From Gammaproteobacteria bacterium (lineage in GTDB: Bacteria > Pseudomonadota > Gammaproteobacteria > Steroidobacterales > Steroidobacteraceae): 32,637 nucleotides of DNA. Location: contig RFOD01000024.1 of assembly GCA_009926865.1 (NCBI GenBank), positions 1-32,637 on the forward strand, read 5' to 3'. The notes beneath the pieces are model-generated. The model was not told where the DNA came from, did not search any database, and saw only the letters and a list, made by a program, of their open reading frames with translations. The position numbers and the translations under genes are program-made. The stretch's first letter is position 1. Every line of letters begins with the position of its first letter. Of the stretch, positions 6,257-16,492 are shown one piece after another.

Positions 6257-6859
6257 TTATCGTGGAGCAGCGGGACGAGGGGCCGGCGGCGATGACGCCG
6301 CGGGCGGCGGGAAATTCTGCACCAGTCGCACGTAACGGACCATCATGGGTGCATTACGCCCAAAGGTATACCCGGTATAAAAATTAACCGTCCAGTAGCG
6401 CCCCACAGACCAACGATTTTTCGAGTCGGTCCAATAGGGTGCCGCCGTTGTCCGCGGAAACAAACGCGCGTCGATCTTCGGGGGCTCACAATCTTCGCAA
6501 ACGAGTCTCTCGAGTTCATCGAGCGTGGGCAGACGCCATTGGCCACCGAGCTCTACGCGTGCCATCGCAGCGGCCGAACGCGCCTCATCTAACGTCAGCA
6601 TTATGGCCTCGCCCATACAGGTAAAACCATTCCACACTTGGCCGACCGAACAACGTAACCACTCGACCCCGTTGTCCCGATCCCGGATGGTAAATTGTCG
6701 CAACTGGGTAGGTGTCGCCGGCTCCGCCGAGCGCGCGGCCGAAGACGCCGAGCCTTGGGCACTCACAGGGACAGACGCGCTCGCTATCACCGCCAGCAGC
6801 GTCAGGCTGAATAACGCGTGGAAAATGGCGCTGCATCTCGACATCTTCATTACGAACAT
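6257..6859 (-). CDS. Secreted DUF1566 (Lcl C-terminal)-like protein
   Basis: The product is about 200 residues from the ATG at 6859, which I prefer because GGTGG lies eight bases upstream; ATGs at 6850 and 6844 are alternatives. A signal peptide with hydrophobic core ALFSLTLLAVIASAS and a probable cut after VSA precedes the mature part. That part has the DUF1566 layout: RDRDNGVEWLRCSVGQVWNG, TLDEARSAAA, GQWRLPTLDELERLV, APYWTDS and a C-terminal VRYVRLVQ. The family is found in exported or surface proteins and has no defined activity. A proline/alanine-rich tail ends the protein. Four cysteines suggest disulfides outside the cytoplasm. It is divergent from pomA, but nothing in the sequence ties it to the motor. 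Confidence 0.75.
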   Translation of the reverse strand: MFVMKMSRCSAIFHALFSLTLLAVIASASVPVSAQGSASSAARSAEPATPTQLRQFTIRDRDNGVEWLRCSVGQVWNGFTCMGEAIMLTLDEARSAAAMARVELGGQWRLPTLDELERLVCEDCEPPKIDARLFPRTTAAPYWTDSKNRWSVGRYWTVNFYTGYTFGRNAPMMVRYVRLVQNFPPPAASSPPAPRPAAPR

Positions 6860-6990
6860 AGATTTGTCCACCATGCGGACGATCAAAAATCGATAACTCA
6901 GTATAACGAAACGCTTTTTGCTGTCGACTTGGTTCCGCACAGAGGATAATCCTTCCAGTTTGAACTATTTCCTGGGGCGGCTCACAGACC

Positions 6991-7758
6991 ATGGATATTG
7001 CAACGTTAATCGGCCTCGTCGGCGCGTCGGGTCTTATCATCTGGGCGATGGGCTCGGCCGGCAATTTGGGCGCGTTTGTCGATGTTCCTTCGCTCATCAT
7101 CGTCGTCGGTGGCACCATCGCCGTCATCCTCTCACGGCACACCATGGCTGAGTTCATTGGGCATTTGACCGGTGCTGTGAAAGCGTTCATGCCTAAATCA
7201 CAACCGCTTGAGCCGCTCGTAGAAATGTTTCCTGAACTCGGTACCCTCGCCCGACGCGAGGGTATGTTGGCACTCGAACCCAAAGCGGCTGAAGCGAGTG
7301 AACGATTTTTGAAGCAAGGCTTAATGATGCTGGTCGATGGCACCGATGAGGCCAAGCTCTCGAGCCGACTACGCACCGAGATGGATGCCATGGATCGCCG
7401 GCACGGAGCAATCATCGCGGCTTGGCAGGGCTGGATCGACGTTGCCCCCGCTATGGGTATGATCGGCACCTTGGTGGGTCTCGTGCAGATGCTCGGTAAT
7501 ATGTCCGATCCGAAGTCGATCGGTCCCGCGATGGCGGTTGCATTGCTGACCACACTCTATGGCGCGTTCATCGCTAACGTGATCGCCGGCCCCATTACCA
7601 ACAAATTAAAGCTATACCACGCAGAAGAGATGATTTATCGCGAGGCTGTGCTAACGGGTCTACAAGGCATTGCTCGCGGTGATAATCCGCGCGTCATCGG
7701 CGATGGAATCTTGGCACTGCTACCGCCTGCCGTGCAGGCGAAGCTCGTCAAGGCCTAA
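6991..7758 (+). CDS. pomA: Flagellar motor stator subunit PomA/MotA
   Basis: At 255 residues with four membrane segments this is a MotA/PomA stator protein, the cytoplasmic-torque part of the ion channel that drives the flagellum. The N-terminus MDIATLIGLVGA and overall length resemble sodium-type PomA rather than E. coli MotA (295). The cytoplasmic loop keeps the charged torque region as TLARREGMLALE. The third segment carries the conserved proline (WIDVAPAMGMIGTLVGLVQML region) and the fourth is AVALLTTLYGAFIANVIAGPI. The start has GGGGCGG ten bases upstream. The partner pomB follows after 41 bases. Sodium coupling is inferred from family resemblance only. Confidence 0.93.
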   Translation: MDIATLIGLVGASGLIIWAMGSAGNLGAFVDVPSLIIVVGGTIAVILSRHTMAEFIGHLTGAVKAFMPKSQPLEPLVEMFPELGTLARREGMLALEPKAAEASERFLKQGLMMLVDGTDEAKLSSRLRTEMDAMDRRHGAIIAAWQGWIDVAPAMGMIGTLVGLVQMLGNMSDPKSIGPAMAVALLTTLYGAFIANVIAGPITNKLKLYHAEEMIYREAVLTGLQGIARGDNPRVIGDGILALLPPAVQAKLVKA

Positions 7759-7799
7759 GGCGCTGTAGCGTATCCGCGTAAGTGAGGCGTGACTAGGTA

Positions 7800-9194
7800 A
7801 TGGCGGCAAGTAGCGAAGCGGTGGCAGAAGAGCTTGAGCCCGGTGCCGAAGAGGCGCCGCCGGCGCCGCCGCCTGCGGCTGATCCACCCAAAGAAAAAAA
7901 ATGCCCTGAGTGTGTGCCGGGTGCCCCGATGTGGATGGCAACCTTCTCGGACATGGCGACGCTGCTGCTGTGCTTTTTCGTGCTGATTCTGTCGTTCGCT
8001 GAGATGAACGTTCCGAAGTTCAAGCAAATCTCCGGCAGCATGAAAAACTCTTTTGGTGTGCAGCGCGAAGTACCGGTCGTCGAGCAACCCAAGGGCACGA
8101 CGATCCTCACCCTCAATTTCTCACCCTCCCCCACTGTGGCGTTGGTCGACAACCTTAAACAAGAAACCACCGACACGACCAAACAGGATATCGAGGTTCG
8201 CGAAAAAGACGCCGATATGACGACCGATCAAGTCTTTGAGGCTGCAGGACGCAAGCCGCAAGATACCGATCGACCGGGCGGTCAGGGTGCGAGCGGACAA
8301 GCTGACGGTCAAGGTCAAAGCCCGGGGCAACAGGGCCAAGGGCAAGGTCAAAGTCAGGCGCAGGGTCAAAGTCAGGGCGAAGGCTCGGGCGCACCGGAAC
8401 AGATCGAACAGGATGCCGCTGCGATCCGTCAGGCGCTCGCGACGCAAGTGGCGATGGGTCAAGTTGAAGTGAAGGCGACCAGCACCCGAGTCACCGTGCA
8501 ATTTCAAAACGATCCTAATGCACCAGCGGCAGAACGCATGGTCGCAGCACAAGCGGTCGCGAGTGGGATGCGTAAGCTCAGCGATATCACACCGCAGCTC
8601 TCAAGCGAAGTGGCCGTCACAGGCGCGACGAGCACCTTATTGGCAGCGGTCGAAAGTGCGACGGGCGCCGCTCAAAATCCACCCACTGGCGGCGGTCAGA
8701 CGGGCACTTCCGGCGGTGGTACGCCGGGTTCGACCAATGAAAAACGAGACCAAACTGCCGAAACGCTCGAGAAAGCATTCGCCGGCGAGATTAAAGATGG
8801 CTTGATCTCAGTGGAGCGCAAGGACGGCGCAGTGGTCGTTAAGATTGGCTCCGGTGGCGCGTTTGCCAGTGGTGACGCCACTCTCACGCCTCTTGCAGTC
8901 AATTTAATCGATAAGATCGGTGAAGTCGCCCAACAAAATGACGCCAAGATCGTGATCGGTGGTCACACCGATAACGTCCCGATCAGCACGGTGCGCTATC
9001 GTGACAACTGGGACTTATCGGCTGCCCGAGCCGTCTCGGTAGTGCGAGAGCTCGTTGCTAAACGCGGCTTTAGTCCGACGCAGATTCAGGCGCAAGGGTT
9101 TGCAGATACGCAGCCTCTCGCACCCAATGATTCAGCACCTAACCGTGCACTGAATCGCCGTATTGAAATCGAAGTACAACTGCCAAAGAGCTGA
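7800..9194 (+). CDS. pomB: Flagellar motor stator subunit PomB/MotB, unusually long
   Basis: The single TM segment has the essential ion-binding aspartate (D51 in ATFSDMATLLLCFFVLILSF), preceded by a CPECVPG pair and followed by the plug/linker block KFKQISGSMKNSFGVQ, all as in Vibrio PomB. The OmpA-like peptidoglycan-binding domain ends the protein, with GGHTDNVP, NWDLSAARA and LNRRIEIEV (about residues 383-460). At 464 residues it is about 150 longer than Vibrio PomB. The extra length is a QG/SG-rich low-complexity stretch (about 159-197) and a region (about 205-285) that looks like a degenerate copy of the C-terminal domain. It anchors the stator to the cell wall around the rotor. The Shine-Dalgarno (AGG at close range) is weak. 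Confidence 0.92.
   Translation: MAASSEAVAEELEPGAEEAPPAPPPAADPPKEKKCPECVPGAPMWMATFSDMATLLLCFFVLILSFAEMNVPKFKQISGSMKNSFGVQREVPVVEQPKGTTILTLNFSPSPTVALVDNLKQETTDTTKQDIEVREKDADMTTDQVFEAAGRKPQDTDRPGGQGASGQADGQGQSPGQQGQGQGQSQAQGQSQGEGSGAPEQIEQDAAAIRQALATQVAMGQVEVKATSTRVTVQFQNDPNAPAAERMVAAQAVASGMRKLSDITPQLSSEVAVTGATSTLLAAVESATGAAQNPPTGGGQTGTSGGGTPGSTNEKRDQTAETLEKAFAGEIKDGLISVERKDGAVVVKIGSGGAFASGDATLTPLAVNLIDKIGEVAQQNDAKIVIGGHTDNVPISTVRYRDNWDLSAARAVSVVRELVAKRGFSPTQIQAQGFADTQPLAPNDSAPNRALNRRIEIEVQLPKS
8276..8395 (+). repeat. QG/SG-rich low-complexity coding repeat in pomB
   Basis: The DNA is dominated by CAGGGTCAA / CAAGGTCAA-like units encoding Gln-Gly-Gln-Ser runs (residues about 159-197). Degenerate repetition like this makes length variation by slippage likely. 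It lies in the periplasmic linker between the plug and the cell-wall-binding domain. Confidence 0.7.
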
Positions 9195-9200
9195 TGCCGC

Positions 9201-9602
9201 GTGGTTCAAGTCCTGACCTATACCGAGGGCCGTGTCTCTGTCGCACTCATTCCCGATCGTTTACGCGCCCTACTGGCTGAAGATCTGGATGTCCAGCGCA
9301 GTAAAGTCGCCGTTATCGGCGATTATTTGCCGGTCGGTCTTAAGATGTCTGAGTTGGCACCGGACGCGCTCATCGACCGCCTGACACTGCTGGCACTGCC
9401 CTCACATGCAGGGCGCGAAGAATTTCTAGTTCGCTTCCAACGCGGGCGCGCGGTATGGATGGTGCTTGTCTTCGGTGCTGAACATTTCTTTGATTTTGAT
9501 CGTCGCTATATACAACCATTTCTCGCAAGCTTGCGCGCAAGTACGGCAACCAATGAACTAGCCGAATCGATACTCCCCTCGCTCAAACCTCCAGCGCATT
9601 GA
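9201..9602 (+). CDS. Uncharacterised 133-residue protein downstream of pomB
   Basis: I do not recognise this protein. It begins at a GTG six bases after the pomB stop, and no suitable ATG is available in frame near this point. The product is soluble in appearance, with no signal or membrane segment; it contains KVAVIGDYLPVGLKMSEL and a hydrophobic strand AVWMVLVFGAEHFF. Close spacing on the same strand indicates co-transcription with pomAB, so a role in stator assembly or regulation is possible, but this is inference from position. It is convergent with the ion-channel-like gene at 9644. Confidence 0.65.
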   Translation: MVQVLTYTEGRVSVALIPDRLRALLAEDLDVQRSKVAVIGDYLPVGLKMSELAPDALIDRLTLLALPSHAGREEFLVRFQRGRAVWMVLVFGAEHFFDFDRRYIQPFLASLRASTATNELAESILPSLKPPAH

Positions 9603-9643: not shown

Positions 9644-10786
9644 TTAGGTCTTCATGATCCGAGCATTGAAGATAGTCGCGTACTGATCAATGGCGAAATC
9701 CATATCCTGAATAATGGCGAGCAAGCCATAGAATACGAAGATAACGACGACTTGGATCACCAGCCCGACGACGCCAGGCGCCGCAAGCATGACAAGCACA
9801 AAATAGAGATTGGCCAGTAACTTCATCCAATCATAGAAGGCGGGTGGGAACGTCAGTTCTGCACGTACCAAAAAGGCACTCATGCGCTGGACGAGTACAG
9901 AGTGGAACACCACATCCATGCTCGGGCGGCTTTTAGTGACGGCACGAACTTCATCAAACATTTGGACAGTACGGGCCTTGATCTTTTCATAACTCGACTC
10001 TGCGTTGAGATAGCGATCCATCTCTTCACGCCACGGATCGAACATCTGCTTACGCATCGGCTCGCTGACCGTATCACCAAACAGATCCCGAATATCGCGC
10101 TCAAAGGCATCGACTGAATCGAGTGCAGCACGATGTCGCTCAGTAATATCTTCGCGCTTGCGATTTACCATGCCGAAGGTAATCGCCATCGAAATACCAA
10201 ACGCTGAGCCCACCGCGGTGACCGCCATTAACAACAACGGTCCATCGAGAAAGTCGTGGACATCAAACCCGAAAAGTGGCTCAAAAAGCTGCACAAAGAC
10301 GCGAATCCCTAAGTGTACCGCCACAGTACCAAAGACAAGGGTGAATACCGATACACCCAGAATCTCAATTAAGAGATTCCCCATACGTAGTAGCTTCAGC
10401 ACCCGAAGCAAGCGAAAGAGTCGCAGAAGGGTAAACACGAGGACGTTCTCTGGGTGTACGTCCCAGCCGAGCGCCATGACCACCACCATGGCCGACGGTA
10501 CGATCGCTAAGCCATCGCCCAGCAAAAATAGCTGGCCACGCCAATCCGTTAACCGGGTGGAGATGAGACGAAGAATAAAGTCCGTCGAAAACGCGATGAA
10601 CAGAAACGACTCCACGGCGATGACGATGGCGCTATCGTGGGTGTAGTACTTGGGGTACTCCTCCATGAGGAACATGAAAAAGATCGACCCAAAAATAGTC
10701 GCAATCATGAAGCCCATGTATCCCTTTGCGAGCGGAGTACTCGGCCGATTCAGTTGTTCGTTTAGGGAAGCAAAACGCGTAGACAT
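9644..10786 (-). CDS. Voltage-sensor-domain membrane protein (ion-transporter-like) with unusual C-terminal half
   Basis: This is a 380-residue membrane protein. The N-terminal 140 residues look like a voltage-sensor domain: S1 about 24-42, S2 about 53-72, S3 about 87-106, and S4 with positive residues at every third place (R122, R125, R128, K131, R134). Two further hydrophobic segments follow (about 141-168 and 182-206), where a pore would be expected, but no TxGYG-like filter is visible. After a long soluble helical region (about 208-315) there is another hydrophobic pair (about 318-365), which faintly recalls bestrophin-like DUF4239 proteins. It could be a channel with an atypical pore, a voltage-dependent proton pathway, or a sensor. 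The ATG at 10786 begins MSTRFASLNEQ. It is not obviously co-transcribed with the ClC gene, 95 bases upstream. Confidence 0.7.
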   Translation of the reverse strand: MSTRFASLNEQLNRPSTPLAKGYMGFMIATIFGSIFFMFLMEEYPKYYTHDSAIVIAVESFLFIAFSTDFILRLISTRLTDWRGQLFLLGDGLAIVPSAMVVVMALGWDVHPENVLVFTLLRLFRLLRVLKLLRMGNLLIEILGVSVFTLVFGTVAVHLGIRVFVQLFEPLFGFDVHDFLDGPLLLMAVTAVGSAFGISMAITFGMVNRKREDITERHRAALDSVDAFERDIRDLFGDTVSEPMRKQMFDPWREEMDRYLNAESSYEKIKARTVQMFDEVRAVTKSRPSMDVVFHSVLVQRMSAFLVRAELTFPPAFYDWMKLLANLYFVLVMLAAPGVVGLVIQVVVIFVFYGLLAIIQDMDFAIDQYATIFNARIMKT

Positions 10787-10881: not shown

Positions 10882-12201
10882 TTATTTCTTTGTTTGCTCT
10901 ATCTTGATATTCGCCAACGGATCGAGCAAGCGCTTGAAGAGCACTTCGTAAAGACTCTCTCGCATGATCAAGCTCGCTGCGCCCGTCCCCAGTAAGGCGG
11001 CGACTAAGAAATGCGTCAGCAAGCCATAAAGTCCTGTGAGCTCGGCGATCAATACGGCACAGGTCACCGGTGCGCGAATCACACCCGACATGAAAGCCGC
11101 CATCCCAATCGCAACTAGAGCCTGTCGATGTGTTTCGAGTGCAAAGAATACGGCGAAATCGTTGCCAAATCCGGCCCCCGCCGCGAGCGACGGCGTGAGA
11201 ATGCCCGCTGGGATGCCGCTCGCGAACGTCAGCGTCATCGATAAGGTTTTGATCAGCCCGACTGAAGTGGTTTGATCGAACTCGCCTGCCGCATTGAGTA
11301 AGGCCGCGCTCGTATCGTTGCCGCTGCCCATCGATAAGCCGGCTGTCCAAATCCCAAAAATCGCCAAAACCAGTCCGATCGCAGCCGCCAAAAATGCGCC
11401 CTCTAGCGGTGTCCGTGTGACCGGCAAAAGTCGCGGAAGCCCAATCACCATCGCCCAGCCCATCACGCCCGCGACGAGCCCGCAGAGCACCGTGACCCCG
11501 ATCCCCGCCCACAACGGCGGCCAAGTCTCGCCAACTTGCTCGAGAGCAAAGAAGGGGACGTGGTGACCTAAGGCCCAGACACAGAGAAAGGAGACGAGAA
11601 TGGGTAACAAGAGAAATCCGTGCGAACGCAGCTTGCGCCCAGCTGATAAATCTTCGAACGCGTAGAGGACCGCTGCCACCGGTGTAGAGAATGCCGCTGC
11701 GAGACCCGTTGCAGCGCCCGCGGTCACGATCATGCGCGGCGACACTCGCATGCGGGGTACCCAGCGCGCGCACCAAGCGCTCATCAAAGAAGCGCCGATT
11801 TGAATCGCAGGCCCCTCGCGTCCAACGGTGCCGCCGGCCGCCATCGCGGTCACGACTGCCACGCCCTTGAAGAGCGATTTGAGGGGTGACAGTAAAAAAT
11901 TGCCGGCGTAGTCGCGAGTACGACGCGTCGAGCGAATCACGCCAAGCACCTGCGGAATACCGCTGCCGCCCGCAAACGGGGCGTAACGCAAGGTCAAATA
12001 GCGGATCACTCCGAAGGTGATCGGAGTGATCAGCAAAAACACCCATGGTGACAGCCCGAACAGAAATGCGCGGATCTCCGTCGCCGCTTTCTCGCCTGCG
12101 TCGAACCCCAGCATGAACACCGCAACCACCACTCCGCCCAAAGAGAGCAGAGTCCAGTCGAGCGCCCGTCGCCATTTGGCGGTGGATGCGGGTCGTCCCA
12201 T
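10882..12201 (-). CDS. ClC-family chloride channel/transporter
   Basis: The 439-residue product has the ClC anion-pathway motifs in order: GSGIPQV, GREGPAIQ with the gating glutamate, and ASGIPAGILTP, plus a late LYEVL tyrosine matching the central-gate Tyr of E. coli ClcA. The helices number as expected for a bare ClC without CBS domains. The gating Glu is kept, but the internal proton glutamate of ClcA (second E of its IIEEMRP block) seems replaced by Asp (AFEDLS), so whether it is a Cl-/H+ exchanger or a channel is unclear. I chose ATG 12201, which has GGAA upstream; an in-frame TTG at 12222 would add seven residues. A 7-bp inverted repeat (12227-12250) sits just upstream. Confidence 0.9.
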   Translation of the reverse strand: MGRPASTAKWRRALDWTLLSLGGVVVAVFMLGFDAGEKAATEIRAFLFGLSPWVFLLITPITFGVIRYLTLRYAPFAGGSGIPQVLGVIRSTRRTRDYAGNFLLSPLKSLFKGVAVVTAMAAGGTVGREGPAIQIGASLMSAWCARWVPRMRVSPRMIVTAGAATGLAAAFSTPVAAVLYAFEDLSAGRKLRSHGFLLLPILVSFLCVWALGHHVPFFALEQVGETWPPLWAGIGVTVLCGLVAGVMGWAMVIGLPRLLPVTRTPLEGAFLAAAIGLVLAIFGIWTAGLSMGSGNDTSAALLNAAGEFDQTTSVGLIKTLSMTLTFASGIPAGILTPSLAAGAGFGNDFAVFFALETHRQALVAIGMAAFMSGVIRAPVTCAVLIAELTGLYGLLTHFLVAALLGTGAASLIMRESLYEVLFKRLLDPLANIKIEQTKK

Positions 12202-12226
12202 CAGCTTGTTCCAGTCTTCCAAGGCA

Positions 12227-12289: not shown

Positions 12290-13021
12290 TCAGAGCTTGT
12301 AGATCGTATCGGCCACTCTGTGTTGATTCGCATCGATTTTTTCGCGCAGCGCCATGATTTCCGAGCGCTGGCTTTCCAGCCGATCATTCAGCGAGGTCAG
12401 CGCATCATTCTCACCCGTTGCGGCTGCAAACCGTGACATCAGACTCTCGCGGTTACCCTGCGCGCGCTCTCGCACCGCAGCAATCAGCTCGAGGTTCTGA
12501 TTGACGCGCTCGGTGTTCGCCTCGCTGGTGGCTGCTTGCATCTGAGTCGCGAGCTCACCATCAAAGTATTCGGCGTTGAGATCGGCTGCATCGTCACAAT
12601 GTTCCACCATCTTATCGATGATGTTCGCAAATGAGGTCGCAGCCTGCTTCATGGCTTGCATCGCTTCGATCATCTTGTCGCTTGCATCAATGAGCTCACG
12701 GTTCATCGCAGAGCGATGATTCAGATATTCAATCCGACTCCGATTGGTCATCGAGGTTTTAAACACGGTCTGCTCGGGCGTCGCCGGCTCCAAGGCTTCC
12801 AAAATCGCAAATCGATTACGGTAGACGTCGTCCGTCATCCGCATCACGAGTTCACGGTTGCTGGTGGAGGCCAGATGATACAAGCGGGTGGCGTCCGTCA
12901 GGTTTTCGTCAGCCCGACCGCGTGCCATTGACACGAGACCCACGTTGTATTGGACGAAAGCTTCTGCGTCAAAAATCAAACGCCGGTTTCGTTGGGCCCG
13001 GTTCTTCAGTTCGTCACTCAT
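12290..13021 (-). CDS. Uncharacterised 243-residue helical protein of the DUF1538-PII operon
   Basis: I do not recognise this protein. It has no signal peptide or membrane segment and appears almost entirely helical, with coiled-coil-like stretches near 113-140 and 205-235. Asn-Arg pairs recur, usually followed by hydrophobic residues (residues 7-8, 12-13, 55-56, 69-70, 93-94, 107-108, 190-191), three of them as NREL or NRES, suggesting an internal repeat. The ATG at 13021 overlaps the end of the upstream PII-like gene by eight bases, so it is part of that operon. Position suggests an effector or scaffold for the PII-like proteins or the DUF1538 membrane protein; the sequence itself does not show which. 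Confidence 0.75.
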   Translation of the reverse strand: MSDELKNRAQRNRRLIFDAEAFVQYNVGLVSMARGRADENLTDATRLYHLASTSNRELVMRMTDDVYRNRFAILEALEPATPEQTVFKTSMTNRSRIEYLNHRSAMNRELIDASDKMIEAMQAMKQAATSFANIIDKMVEHCDDAADLNAEYFDGELATQMQAATSEANTERVNQNLELIAAVRERAQGNRESLMSRFAAATGENDALTSLNDRLESQRSEIMALREKIDANQHRVADTIYKL

Positions 13022-13376
13022 GGATCACGGGCAACATCAGTCGTGACGAACGAGTAAGTCGATTGACATTGATCATCCCCACCCCAGGCTCATTCAGCTT
13101 GAAGTCGTGGTAGATCATGGAATAGATGTAGTCAGCCTGGTCGGCTGACACCACGGCATGTAGCACTTCCGTGCGCGGAATCTCGGGCAAGTTACCCGCC
13201 TCGGAGGCGCGCCCGATGGGCTTACCCCGAACCGAGTAAAAATACGCCTCATTGATCCCGCGGCGATACAACTCCTCCATGATGGCCTCGGCACCGCCTT
13301 GGTACATCACACAGGTCAAAAGCCGCGTGTAATCAATCTTTGGCACATCGGCCGCTGTTGTCTCAGTGGTACTCAT
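13014..13376 (-). CDS. PII-like signalling protein (second copy, divergent)
   Basis: The 120-residue protein has the PII/GlnB-like ferredoxin fold pattern: strand LLTCVMYQGGAEAIMEELYRRGI, a middle loop region, then RTEVLHAVVSADQADYIYSMIYHDFKLNEPGVGMINVNRL. The T-loop is short and lacks the uridylylated tyrosine of GlnB/GlnK. Proteins of this kind bind small nucleotides and gate a partner, often a membrane transporter encoded next door. Here the partner would be the DUF1538 protein. The ATG at 13376 has AGGGGG upstream. It is 20 bases after the first PII-like gene and overlaps the following gene by eight bases. Confidence 0.78.
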   Translation of the reverse strand: MSTTETTAADVPKIDYTRLLTCVMYQGGAEAIMEELYRRGINEAYFYSVRGKPIGRASEAGNLPEIPRTEVLHAVVSADQADYIYSMIYHDFKLNEPGVGMINVNRLTRSSRLMLPVIHE

Positions 13377-13396
13377 GGAGACCCCCTAAGATCCGC

Positions 13397-13750
13397 TCAG
13401 GCCCGATCGGCAAGATTGGGCGGGATGTAGGTGGCCGCTTGTAGCAGCGGCGTCACGTACAGATAACCCATCCCCGGCGTATCGAGTCGGCCGATGATGA
13501 ATACCCGCTCAAAAATCCGATCGACCTGATCGTTCGGCACCATAAAGCTGATAATTTCGCGCTCGACGTCGACGGCGACACCGAGCAAGCCCATGCGCTC
13601 ACGCACACCGGTCCCCACCCCCATGTGTACGGTGGCGCCTTGGACGCCCAGATCGAGCAGGGCGGTATTGATCGTGTCCGCCATGCCCTTCTGGATGACG
13701 CAGGTCATCAGCGACACATCGATCAGGTTTGTCATTCTACGCTTGGCCAT
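13397..13750 (-). CDS. PII-like signalling protein (first copy)
   Basis: The 117-residue protein matches the PII-like pattern well: LMTCVIQKGMADTINTALLDLGV, a glycine-rich loop HMGVGTGVRERMGLLGVAV, then EREIISFMVPNDQVDRIFERVF and a C-terminal PGMGYLYVTPL. The GxGxRERxGLLGxAV block is common in PII relatives encoded beside DUF1538 genes, as far as I recall. It has no GlnB-type T-loop tyrosine motif. The ATG at 13750 has GGGAGA at proper spacing. It lies 46 bases downstream of the DUF1538 gene on the same strand. It is only weakly similar to the second PII-like protein, so they probably have different ligands or form a heteromer. Confidence 0.82.
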   Translation of the reverse strand: MAKRRMTNLIDVSLMTCVIQKGMADTINTALLDLGVQGATVHMGVGTGVRERMGLLGVAVDVEREIISFMVPNDQVDRIFERVFIIGRLDTPGMGYLYVTPLLQAATYIPPNLADRA

Positions 13751-13796
13751 GAAGGTCTCCCGGCGCTTTTTCTTTGAAAGGAGTGCGAGTCACAAA

Positions 13797-15557
13797 TTAG
13801 GCGGCTTCGCCCGAGGCAGCAGCGAGCTCTTTTTTGGTCTTCCACTGAACGTAGACACCCAAACTGAGCACCGCCACGATCGGCGCGATGGAGGCGGCGG
13901 CGAGAATGCCAAAGCCTTCCAAGGCGCCCACCGCTTCACCAAATCCAAGACCCATCGCAAGCACGAGCGGCACGGTCACAGGGCCCGTGGTGACGCCCGC
14001 GCTATCCCACCCGACGTTGACGAATTCTTCGGTTGAGAGATAGGTCAGAATGATCGCTGCGAGATATCCCGGCACTAGGATGTATAGCAAGTTGAAATCA
14101 AAGATCAGCTTGCAGACACCGAGCATGATTCCGGTCGACACCCCGATCGCAACCGAATACATCAGCATGGATTTTTTGAAGGCACCGTTCGTCAGGTTCT
14201 GTACCGTCAAACCAAGCGCATTGAGTGCAGGCTCGGCCATCGTCGCGCTGTAACCTAAGAACCAGGCAAATGCTGCGGCTAAGAAAATGCCGAGCGCTGC
14301 AGGATAAAGCGGTGCCTCTGGCATGGCTTCGATCCCAACGAACGCGCCAGGAATCAAGGAGCCCGTTTGAGCGCCAAGTGCCGCCAAGCCATAGGTCAGG
14401 CCGACGTTAAACACGCACATACCCACCACCGCGAGGAACAGTCCCCACACGATGATGAAGGCATTCGGTAACTTCTCGCGGAGGATGCCAAAGAGCACGA
14501 CCATCAAGAAAATGACCAAGGGTACGATGGCCTGTACGCCGAGCTTCACTTCGACGCCCGGTGACACTTCGTACCACTGCGGCGTCGACACCGCGGCAGC
14601 CGCTGCGCTCTTGGCCGCGACTTCTGCGAGGATCATGTCCACTGGCACCGTGAACTTCCAAAAGATCGCAAGCGCCAACACCGCCATGATTGGGAACAGT
14701 GACGCCAAGGTCACGATACCGAACCCCGATAACTGTGATTCACCCTTACCACCGGAGTTCGCAACACCGATACCGAGTGCGAGCACCAAAGGCACGGTCA
14801 CGGGACCGGTGGTCACGGCACCGCAGTCCCACGCCAGACCGACGACCGTTTTGAGATCCTGATCGAGCGAGCAGAACGCCGTCAGTAACACCACAGGTAG
14901 GAGGGTCAAATAAATAAGGGGCTTTAAGCTCCAATCGTACAAAAAGCGCACCGTCCCAAGGACCGCCGCGATACCGACGCCAATCCCCACCACCAGCACG
15001 GTTGAGCCCGCGCGATCATTGAGCATGGTGTAGAGATAGGGCGCTTTCTCGGGGTCCACGATTTGACCTGCGACCTGCAGGGTACCGATCGCAGGCTCCG
15101 CGTAGGTCACGCCGATACCCAGCAATAAAGCGATCGTCAACACGCCCGGTAAGGGCAATTTGCGTGGCAAATTACTACCGATAATGTCGCCGAAGGGCAT
15201 CAAACCGAGCTTGAGGCCTTCCATGAAAATCATCAGGCCCACCATGACGGCCAGCAGACCCGCGCCAATCAGGGTGGCGTCGGCGACGCTACGCTGCAGG
15301 ACGAGCCACTGAAACAAAGCGAGGAATACCGCAAGCGGAATCACCGCTCGCGCCTGTTCCATAAATCGAACGCTGAGATAGGGCTGTAAGAGGTTGACGA
15401 TGTCGCCGCCCGACATCTGTAACTTCTCAGGTTTACGCGGGATTTCGCGCCCCTCGGCGTCGAGTTGAGGCTTGGGTACCAGCTTCTCGTAGCCAATGGA
15501 GGTCGTGTCTACGGTGACCTTTTGCAGGTATTCACCGAAACGGATGTTTCTTGCCAC
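13797..15557 (-). CDS. DUF1538 domain membrane protein, two internal repeats
   Basis: This is a 586-residue polytopic membrane protein whose two halves are homologous. Each half contains the DUF1538 hallmark: CGAVTTGPVTVPLVLALGIG in the first and SAGVTTGPVTVPLVLAMGLG in the second, each followed by GFGI and a hydrophobic segment beginning with small residues and PI. Such inverted or tandem duplications are typical of secondary transporters; the substrate is not known. The N-terminal ~45 residues are soluble. The start is a GTG at 15557 preceded by GGGGGG, with no closer ATG. It leads an operon with two PII-like proteins and a helical protein. Regulation of transport by PII-type nucleotide sensing is the natural inference. 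Confidence 0.88.
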   Translation of the reverse strand: MARNIRFGEYLQKVTVDTTSIGYEKLVPKPQLDAEGREIPRKPEKLQMSGGDIVNLLQPYLSVRFMEQARAVIPLAVFLALFQWLVLQRSVADATLIGAGLLAVMVGLMIFMEGLKLGLMPFGDIIGSNLPRKLPLPGVLTIALLLGIGVTYAEPAIGTLQVAGQIVDPEKAPYLYTMLNDRAGSTVLVVGIGVGIAAVLGTVRFLYDWSLKPLIYLTLLPVVLLTAFCSLDQDLKTVVGLAWDCGAVTTGPVTVPLVLALGIGVANSGGKGESQLSGFGIVTLASLFPIMAVLALAIFWKFTVPVDMILAEVAAKSAAAAAVSTPQWYEVSPGVEVKLGVQAIVPLVIFLMVVLFGILREKLPNAFIIVWGLFLAVVGMCVFNVGLTYGLAALGAQTGSLIPGAFVGIEAMPEAPLYPAALGIFLAAAFAWFLGYSATMAEPALNALGLTVQNLTNGAFKKSMLMYSVAIGVSTGIMLGVCKLIFDFNLLYILVPGYLAAIILTYLSTEEFVNVGWDSAGVTTGPVTVPLVLAMGLGFGEAVGALEGFGILAAASIAPIVAVLSLGVYVQWKTKKELAAASGEAA

Positions 15558-15766: not shown

Positions 15767-16492
15767 TCAATCGACCTCAGGCTCCATCGCTGAACGCAAT
15801 TTTTTTGCAACCGCTGAGAGAATTTGGCTGGCTCGAGACTCGCTGATCGAGAGTACGGCACCAATTTCCTTTAGTGTCATTTCTTCATCGTAATAGAGCG
15901 CCAAGATGAGCCGCTCGCGCTCTTTTAGCCCGCCGATGGCTGCGCGCAGCTCGCGGACCTGCGACTCCTCGTCGACTAACTGATCGGGTGTCGGCGCGTC
16001 GCTCGCAAATTCAATTTCTTCCAAGGTCGTCGAGAGCGCTAAGCCTTGATTGCGCGCGCGCAGCGTATGGTAGCGCTCGACATCTAACCCCAGCGCATCG
16101 GCGATCTGACGATGACTGGCCGGAGAGCCCGTTTCATTAACGATTTTTTCTTCGGCTTCGCGCGCCTGCACTGCCAATTTCACTGTGCTGCGCGGCGCCC
16201 AGGCTGCACGTCGGATTTCATCGAGCATCGCACCGCGAATGCGCAACTTGGCAAAGGTTTCAAAATCATTGCCGCGCTCAGGGTCGTAGGACTCTAGCGC
16301 TTCTAGGAGCCCCACTATCCCCGCCTGAATCAAATCAGACTGCTCGATCGCTGCCGGTAAACGCGAGTGGAAATGTGAAGCGACTCGTTTCACCAAGCCC
16401 AAGTGCTGCGAGACATCTGGGCGAACCTCGCCCGCGCCCGCGCTGCCCGTGCAGCCGGCGATCGTCTCGTAGGAAGATGAGGCTCGAATCAT
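15767..16492 (-). CDS. fliA: Flagellar sigma factor FliA (sigma-28)
   Basis: The 241-residue protein is a group 3 sigma factor. Region 2 reads DLIQAGIVGLLEALESYDPERGNDFETFAKLRIRGAMLDEIR (given in part: core SYDPERGNDFETFAKLRIRG), region 3 has HRQIADALG, and region 4 ends with the helix-turn-helix TLKEIGAVLSISESRASQI. It directs RNA polymerase to late flagellar and chemotaxis promoters. The ATG at 16492 overlaps the flhG stop as ATGA, so translation is coupled. It is the last gene of the flhA-flhF-flhG-fliA operon. Unlike in Pseudomonas and Vibrio, no cheY/cheZ genes follow. Confidence 0.95.
   Translation of the reverse strand: MIRASSSYETIAGCTGSAGAGEVRPDVSQHLGLVKRVASHFHSRLPAAIEQSDLIQAGIVGLLEALESYDPERGNDFETFAKLRIRGAMLDEIRRAAWAPRSTVKLAVQAREAEEKIVNETGSPASHRQIADALGLDVERYHTLRARNQGLALSTTLEEIEFASDAPTPDQLVDEESQVRELRAAIGGLKERERLILALYYDEEMTLKEIGAVLSISESRASQILSAVAKKLRSAMEPEVD

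Follow-up and report, generated by a model that had tools for sequence, protein, structure and literature searches.

A putative fused UmpAB-type antiporter gene followed by two divergent PII-like genes: a candidate PII-gated ion-transport cassette

Why would a single membrane carrier be followed by two unlike PII-type proteins? The question is raised by an operon in a 32,637-nt stretch of DNA from a gammaproteobacterium of the Steroidobacteraceae (contig RFOD01000024.1, assembly GCA_009926865.1), which we analysed whole and call the window. A first-pass annotation, made from the letters alone, had described there a duplicated DUF1538 membrane protein, two strongly different PII-like proteins and an unassigned 243-residue protein, and had proposed a regulated transport system. 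All four open reading frames (ORFs) were confirmed in place on the minus strand at 15557–12290; we refer to them as the fused DUF1538 gene, PIIa, PIIb and HEL (Table 1). Because gaps of 46 bp (DUF1538–PIIa) and 20 bp (PIIa–PIIb) are followed by an 8-bp overlap (PIIb/HEL), the sequence makes a single operon likely; a promoter and terminator scan of the operon gave signals at chance level or below and was uninformative. The answer we favour, with somewhat better than even confidence, is that the locus encodes a cation/proton antiporter gated by a PIIa–PIIb hetero-oligomer that reads an adenine nucleotide, with HEL as an added rod, in the service of ion homeostasis.

DUF1538 carriers and their PII neighbours

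First, the 586-aa protein matched the Pfam DUF1538 family (PF07556) in two stretches (1.9e-101; 338.2 bits against a cut-off of 22.6). The NCBIfam models of UmpA (NF041627, 184 bits) and UmpB (NF041628, 158.8 bits) fell on its first and second half, respectively, under their equivalog cut-offs of 490 and 500 bits. Each half carries one copy of the motif WD(C/S)(G/A)(A/G)VTTGPVTVPLVL, as read from the sequence and its conserved columns. AlphaFold2 returned a fairly confident fold (predicted local distance difference test score, pLDDT, 82.8; predicted template modelling score, pTM, 0.81). Searched against the PDB, this model gave no match at E ≤ 0.001 (best 6gwh, 0.055); an SbtA- or AmtB-type carrier fold was thus not found in that search, a missing match being weak evidence. 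The Pfam label of the family is 'unknown function'. The substrate, which had been called undescribed, nevertheless has a published precedent. The excerpted text of PMC5484666 describes UmpAB of Halomonas zhaodongensis, a pair of DUF1538 proteins, as a hetero-dimeric, pH-dependent Na+(Li+,K+)/H+ antiporter encoded by ORF3-4 of a cloned 4.2-kb fragment with ORF1 to ORF4, and reports that co-expression of umpA and umpB was sufficient for antiport in E. coli KNabc. Carrying this over, we infer that the 586-aa protein would act as an antiporter as well. DUF1538 also stands in an excerpted table of Pfam families chosen as important to the prediction of growth pH (PMC13255231).

Next, we scanned genome contigs with the 586-aa protein and kept the best 80 of 106 relatives (84–54% identity), which by their record titles come mainly from Alpha-, Beta- and Gammaproteobacteria, and also from Bdellovibrionales and Nitrospinaceae. 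PIIa follows DUF1538 in 77 of the 80, and the remaining three loci end 1–152 bp past DUF1538. PIIb follows PIIa at every locus with room (77/77), so that the transporter and two distinct PII proteins form a conserved unit, as the first-pass annotation had supposed. The short PIIb of an alpha-like group was recovered by a profile built without its members (E about 1e-3 or better), and the two PIIb types were linked by hhalign at 98.1%. At our locus L041 (5332–6607) a shortened DUF1538 continues in frame into a PIIa-like end, owing to either a deletion or an assembly fault. A 233-aa PII ORF at L090 was considered as a fusion and rejected, its start lying too far upstream; this locus has separate PIIa and PIIb, in the order DUF1538, PIIa, PIIb, TrkA, TrkH, UmpA, UmpB, PII, all in one direction.

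The pairing extends beyond the fused type. DUF1538 occurred in 90 of the 274 genomes of a class-level sample, and a PII gene lay downstream in 29 of the 30 best-scoring loci from those 90 genomes, mostly two-gene UmpAB loci, the sole miss (L016) falling at a contig edge. Such two-gene loci mostly have one PII. Of 13 longer DUF1538 regions, 4 come from genomes represented in these 30 loci and 9 from others; all 13 had a PII gene in the same short run, upstream of DUF1538 in L162 and with an intervening opposite-strand ORF in L156. A further locus, L165, is only 10 bases long and was left out. Among plasmids, 9 records held DUF1538 relatives and 7 were examined: a 'P-II family nitrogen regulator' was annotated next to DUF1538 in all five annotated loci, and two loci unannotated at DUF1538 nonetheless carry PII ORFs. 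The pairing is therefore already visible in public annotation. We found no literature link between DUF1538 or UmpAB and PII in any paper. The words PII and P-II are absent from the main text of PMC5484666, and in PMC7221264, which mentions DUF1538, the letters PII occur only within an amino-acid motif. A text search of PMC5996927 and PMC6055358, which also mention DUF1538, gave no joint mention with PII in the text available, and the accessible parts of two papers on cable bacteria, which regard UmpAB as a probable adaptation to salt, lack the word PII.

Two divergent PII proteins, joined in relatives

PIIa scored just over the Pfam P-II cut-off (1.1e-5; 26.1 bits against 25), and a profile of 32 PIIa sequences matched solved PII structures (best 1.3e-7). 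PIIb alone had no Pfam or NCBIfam match. It is probably a PII relative all the same: profile–profile comparison aligned it to PIIa (hhalign, 99.5%, E 5.5e-23), and its own profile of 21 sequences matched PII structures in the PDB (best 9p1x_H, 1.7e-5, labelled only 'P-II family nitrogen regulatory protein'). With 22% identity between them, the two are as strongly different as had been claimed. The window genome has three further P-II matches, all elsewhere and all stronger than PIIa, which marks PIIa as a separate paralogue.

In alignments to solved PII chains, PIIa keeps the GxxGxTV core ahead of the T-loop, and its T-loop is about 5 residues shorter. Canonical GlnB and GlnK have Gln39 and Lys90, which we take to be residues of the ATP/2-oxoglutarate site. 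This combination is missing from PIIa: Gln39 aligns with Arg50, invariant in the 32 sequences, and in the structure alignment the place of Lys90 is held by Ile (Tyr96 in the window) and that of Lys85 by Thr. The match of SbtB to the PIIa profile was weak (6mm2_A, E 0.61, profile 13–51 to chain 6–44), and Arg50 corresponds to SbtB chain residue 43 only if this weak alignment is ungapped. In Synechocystis SbtB, the R43xxR46 motif binds nucleotide phosphates, according to the part of PMC10117731 available. The CGPxGC R-loop motif is absent from both PIIa and PIIb of the window.

In 9 genomes of the window's class, a long DUF1538 protein is directly followed by a single PII-matching protein of 384–508 aa in which two or three PII-like domains lie in tandem (L043, L044, L045 and L166–L171). 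In the 7 of these 9 subjected to domain analysis, the PIIa profile matched domain 2 strongly throughout (4e-19 to 6e-26), domain 1 also in 7/7 (8e-5 or better) and a third region in 6/7, at values from 1e-6 to a non-significant 0.22. DUF1538 fusions on clostridial plasmids (L178, L180, L181, L182 and L183) are similar, the next protein having two clear PII-like stretches in four of the five; in the fifth, from Vescimonas, the first stretch was not significant. At the P. acidaminophilum locus, DUF1538 and PII are closely followed by a ClC exchanger gene on the opposite strand. Since PII proteins are trimers and these chains join different PII domains, the architecture suggests one mixed oligomer containing both PIIa and PIIb. 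Mixed trimers of E. coli GlnB and GlnK are known from the excerpted text of PMC5448240; among the papers screened by title and start of abstract, we recognised no tandem PII chain.

HEL, neighbouring genes and genomic setting

HEL has no significant family in Pfam, NCBIfam or PHROGs. A phasin assignment (PF05597) was rejected at 14.7 bits and E 0.034, under the 28.8-bit cut-off, and an internal repeat was unsupported (z at most 1.8). AlphaFold2, run with 17 sequences, predicts (pLDDT 94.2) three helices at residues 3–76, 82–153 and 166–242, each 72–77 residues long and joined by two short turns; this model and that of DUF1538 are of single chains. Foldseek against the PDB returned 257 matches at E ≤ 10, of which the 50 listed were mostly coiled coils and helical bundles, and none at E ≤ 0.001. 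Binned by height along the rod, invariant residues make up 15 of the 81 residues in the two lowest bins, 5 of the 78 in the two central bins and 19 of the 84 in the two highest. They would thus gather toward both rod ends, provided that the helices stack as the three-helix hairpin assumed in computing these heights, which derive from residue numbers and not from coordinates.

HEL lies directly after PIIb in the window and in 16 of the 68 loci with room among the 80. With relatives down to 34% identity to the window's HEL, it has been kept in this place over long divergence. A quick tree of 88 DUF1538 proteins places the 16 loci and the window in one supported clade of 19. Within this clade HEL is missing only at L050 and L072, both truncated by a contig end, and one gain of HEL therefore suffices; scoring both as HEL-less, the tree programme needs 3 changes. 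The immediate sister of the clade, L034, is also cut, and the next sisters, L064 and L065 (Bdellovibrionales), have no HEL. The record of L050 is titled as a metagenome-assembled genome (MAG) of Bordetella parapertussis; its DUF1538 groups with uncultured Burkholderiales MAGs, so the species label is doubtful. HEL was found in 1 of 274 genomes of the class by single-sequence search, and in 1 of 246 of the order and 1 of 378 of the phylum by alignment search, each time the window's own. The search in the order of genome G195 covered 2 genomes only and showed nothing, and phage and viral-contig searches gave no relative. An orphan hypothetical protein on an Octadecabacter arcticus plasmid (L176:8992–9705), with IS6 transposases on both sides, is a full-length relative (231 aligned columns, 27% identity). 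A 243-aa neighbour at L115, by eye nitroreductase-like, was dropped as a HEL candidate. Given the 16/68 loci and the plasmid orphan, HEL is neither a general part of DUF1538 systems nor strictly tied to them. The first-pass annotation had made its case depend on both HEL and the second PII gene being present at most DUF1538 loci. The second PII gene holds its place in the fused type and passes this check, but HEL fails it as a co-conserved fourth part, being confined within the cassette to one clade; the PII part is more general than was supposed, and the HEL part less so.

The co-directional run continues beyond HEL, with a ClC gene after 67 bp and a gene for an Ion_trans protein after a further 95 bp, both overlooked at first pass; the ClC gene is probably a continuation of the operon. 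At locus L046, HEL is followed by a ClC protein 50% identical to the window's and then by a channel-like protein 63% identical to the 380-aa one, relatives of which occur at L046–L049. A block at 6257–9602 in the window holds MotA/ExbB-like (6991–7758) and MotB/OmpA-like (7800–9194) genes, with Lcl_C (6257–6940) on the opposite strand; homologues of this block adjoin the cassette in L046 too, but on the opposite side.

Table 1. Genes of the window's cassette and its flanks, and sets of related loci
Feature	Position or loci	Strand	Properties
Fused double-DUF1538 (UmpA-UmpB-like) membrane protein	13797..15557	-	586 aa, GTG start; PF07556 in two stretches
PIIa, first PII-like protein	13397..13750	-	117 aa; Pfam P-II match
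PIIb, second, divergent PII-like protein	13014..13376	-	120 aa; hhalign to PIIa
HEL, clade-specific accessory, predicted three-long-helix rod	12290..13021	-	243 aa; no significant family
ClC-family chloride channel or H+/Cl- exchanger	10882..12222	-	446 aa; Pfam Voltage_CLC 4.8e-59
Voltage-sensor / ion-channel-like membrane protein	9644..10786	-	380 aa; Pfam Ion_trans 4.9e-8
Sigma-70-family factor, 209 bp upstream of the DUF1538 gene	15767..16492	-	family match; the name fliA is that of the first-pass annotation only
Loci of DUF1538 and PII with a CBS-pair gene adjoining the PII gene	L152-L155, L159-L162, L164

DUF1538 and HEL are each encoded once in the window genome (2.32 Mb in 103 contigs). 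DUF1538 occurred in 0 of 5 same-genus genomes of the order sample and, as an ordinary distant type, in three genomes of the same family. No cassette lies at 10 fliA loci from congeners, some of which stretches end close to fliA, and the DUF1538 proteins nearest to the window's in the tree are those of L046 and Burkholderiales MAGs. The window genome has likely acquired the cassette horizontally. Its non-flagellar character, already noted at first pass, is upheld by this absence and by the ion-transport genes beside HEL-bearing relatives.

To describe the neighbourhoods, we scanned 92 loci (L034–L125) within 6 kb with 14 neighbour proteins as queries. Class III cyclases were found at 25 loci, cyclic nucleotide monophosphate (cNMP)-binding proteins at 20, K+ channels at 13, ClC proteins at 10, CPA1 antiporters at 8, Trk at 6 and the 380-aa channel-like protein at 4. 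All 16 HEL loci have a K+ or Cl- transport gene within 6 kb (in L052, L053 and L062 on the other strand only), and the same queries gave nothing at 23 comparison loci (10 congener fliA loci and 13 UmpAB-type regions). Pfam runs on neighbour representatives gave Ion_trans, Voltage_CLC, TrkA, TrkH, Na_H_Exchanger with cNMP_binding, CHASE2-cyclase and GAF-PAS-cyclase. In alphaproteobacteria, at L085:316–3610 and relatives, a CHASE2-cyclase and one or two small cNMP-binding proteins precede DUF1538-PII. Nine of the 13 longer regions have, adjoining the PII gene, a gene for a 130–140-aa protein whose sequence we read as a CBS pair; Pfam confirmed CBS in all four such proteins tested. Cyclases, cNMP-binding and CBS proteins in the neighbourhood of some relatives make an adenine nucleotide our best guess for the PII ligand, though a tentative one.

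A proposed gated antiporter, its alternatives and known systems

In the mechanism that we propose, the core of an ion-homeostasis cassette would be a UmpAB-type (DUF1538) cation/proton antiporter with both halves fused. PIIa and PIIb would form a mixed PII trimer or hexamer on its cytoplasmic face, and a bound ligand, most likely AMP, ATP, cyclic AMP (cAMP) or cyclic di-AMP (c-di-AMP), would change antiporter activity through this complex; that PII docks on and gates the carrier we infer after GlnK–AmtB and SbtB–SbtA. HEL, as a cytosolic three-helix rod gained once in one lineage, would probably tether the PII complex or couple it to neighbouring K+/Cl- transport proteins, a role that we assign tentatively.

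Several results weigh against this proposal. UmpAB works in E. coli from its two genes alone, as the available part of PMC5484666 has it, and PII is therefore dispensable for transport. Many of the 80 loci, all selected by likeness to the window protein, are near-copies (marine alphas), so that 77/77 represents far fewer independent events. In the multi-PII chains, the match to a third domain in the triple-PII proteins is weak, and with an independent UmpAB-type PII profile domain 2 alone stands out clearly. The neighbour queries were picked after the same loci had been viewed, and the comparison set had fewer loci of shorter length (194 kb in all, against 1.13 Mb). Unrelated families or none were found for 9 of 20 scanned neighbour proteins (two at L116 and one each at L117, L075, L082, L092, L115, L089 and L105), and a neighbour protein at L064 had a weak N_methyl match only. 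No cyclase lies near any HEL locus in the 6-kb scan, and the cyclic-nucleotide argument thus comes from relatives only. HEL itself is absent from 52 of the 68 loci with room and has its orphan relative on a plasmid.

Among other explanations, PIIa and PIIb could be sensors that act on neighbouring K+/Cl- channels, the CPA1 antiporter or a cytosolic enzyme and are merely co-expressed with DUF1538. PII proteins have many targets in general, and 23 of the 92 loci have ClC, K+ channels, Trk or CPA1 nearby; these neighbours, however, vary by lineage, whereas PII beside DUF1538 is constant (77/77, 29/30, 13/13 and the Clostridia), and we hold this explanation to be improbable. Classical nitrogen control, in which the pair would sense ATP and 2-oxoglutarate and the carrier would move a nitrogen compound, seems to us very improbable: the Pfam P-II score and the kept GxxGxTV core speak for it, but the invariant Arg, the Ile or Tyr and the Thr at the ligand positions, the shorter T-loop and the three stronger P-II proteins elsewhere in the genome speak against it, as do the ion-transport genes found beside HEL loci, where nitrogen genes were not searched for.

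For HEL, the alternative is that of a passenger spread by mobility and bearing no relation to the transporter. Its rarity in the genome samples and the plasmid relative between transposases fit such a history, yet its place directly after PIIb in 16/16 genome-contig relatives, despite their divergence, and the clustering of invariant residues toward the rod ends do not, and we consider a passenger unlikely though worth keeping in mind. We return, then, to the gated antiporter. Its widest form would have all DUF1538 antiporters gated by PII, a hetero-oligomer built from two genes, a two-domain chain or a single-chain three-domain pseudo-trimer reading adenine (cyclic) nucleotides, with HEL, in one lineage, physically joining the sensor to K+ and Cl- channels; in this breadth it appears doubtful.

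If this widest form is true, Na+/K+/H+ exchange would be set by the energy or cAMP state of the cell, in a carrier-sensor class beside AmtB–GlnK and SbtA–SbtB. Control of transporters by PII is known from ammonium and bicarbonate uptake, and a link to Na+/H+ antiport would widen its reach to the balance of salt and pH. The near-constant PII link would lend the DUF1538 family a regulatory logic, and the multi-PII chains would allow each PII position to be studied separately.

Known systems share parts of this arrangement. UmpAB has the same two homologous DUF1538 halves, to which the Pfam and NCBIfam models assign those of the window protein; it is encoded by two separate genes and forms a hetero-dimer, whereas the window has one fused gene of 586 codons, scoring far under the UmpA and UmpB equivalog cut-offs and followed by PIIa, PIIb and HEL. 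GlnK pairs with and gates the ammonium channel AmtB, likewise a PII protein with a membrane transporter, but the window's carrier is a different one and its PII lacks the canonical ligand residues. NifI1 and NifI2 of nitrogenase are also two different, side-by-side PII-like genes acting together, although on an enzyme and not a carrier. GlnB/GlnK heterotrimers place different PII proteins in one trimer (excerpted text of PMC5448240); they are close nitrogen-control paralogues, in contrast to the strongly diverged PII types that accompany a carrier here and are fused in relatives. SbtA–SbtB offers a carrier gene followed by a PII-like gene, an arginine at the T-loop base and a model of adenine-nucleotide sensing (excerpted text of PMC8352866 and PMC10117731); the window differs in its DUF1538 model without a PDB match at the threshold used, in having two different PII proteins and in lacking CGPxGC. 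By analogy, the cassette may work like a PII-gated carrier that stands outside both AmtB–GlnK and SbtA–SbtB.

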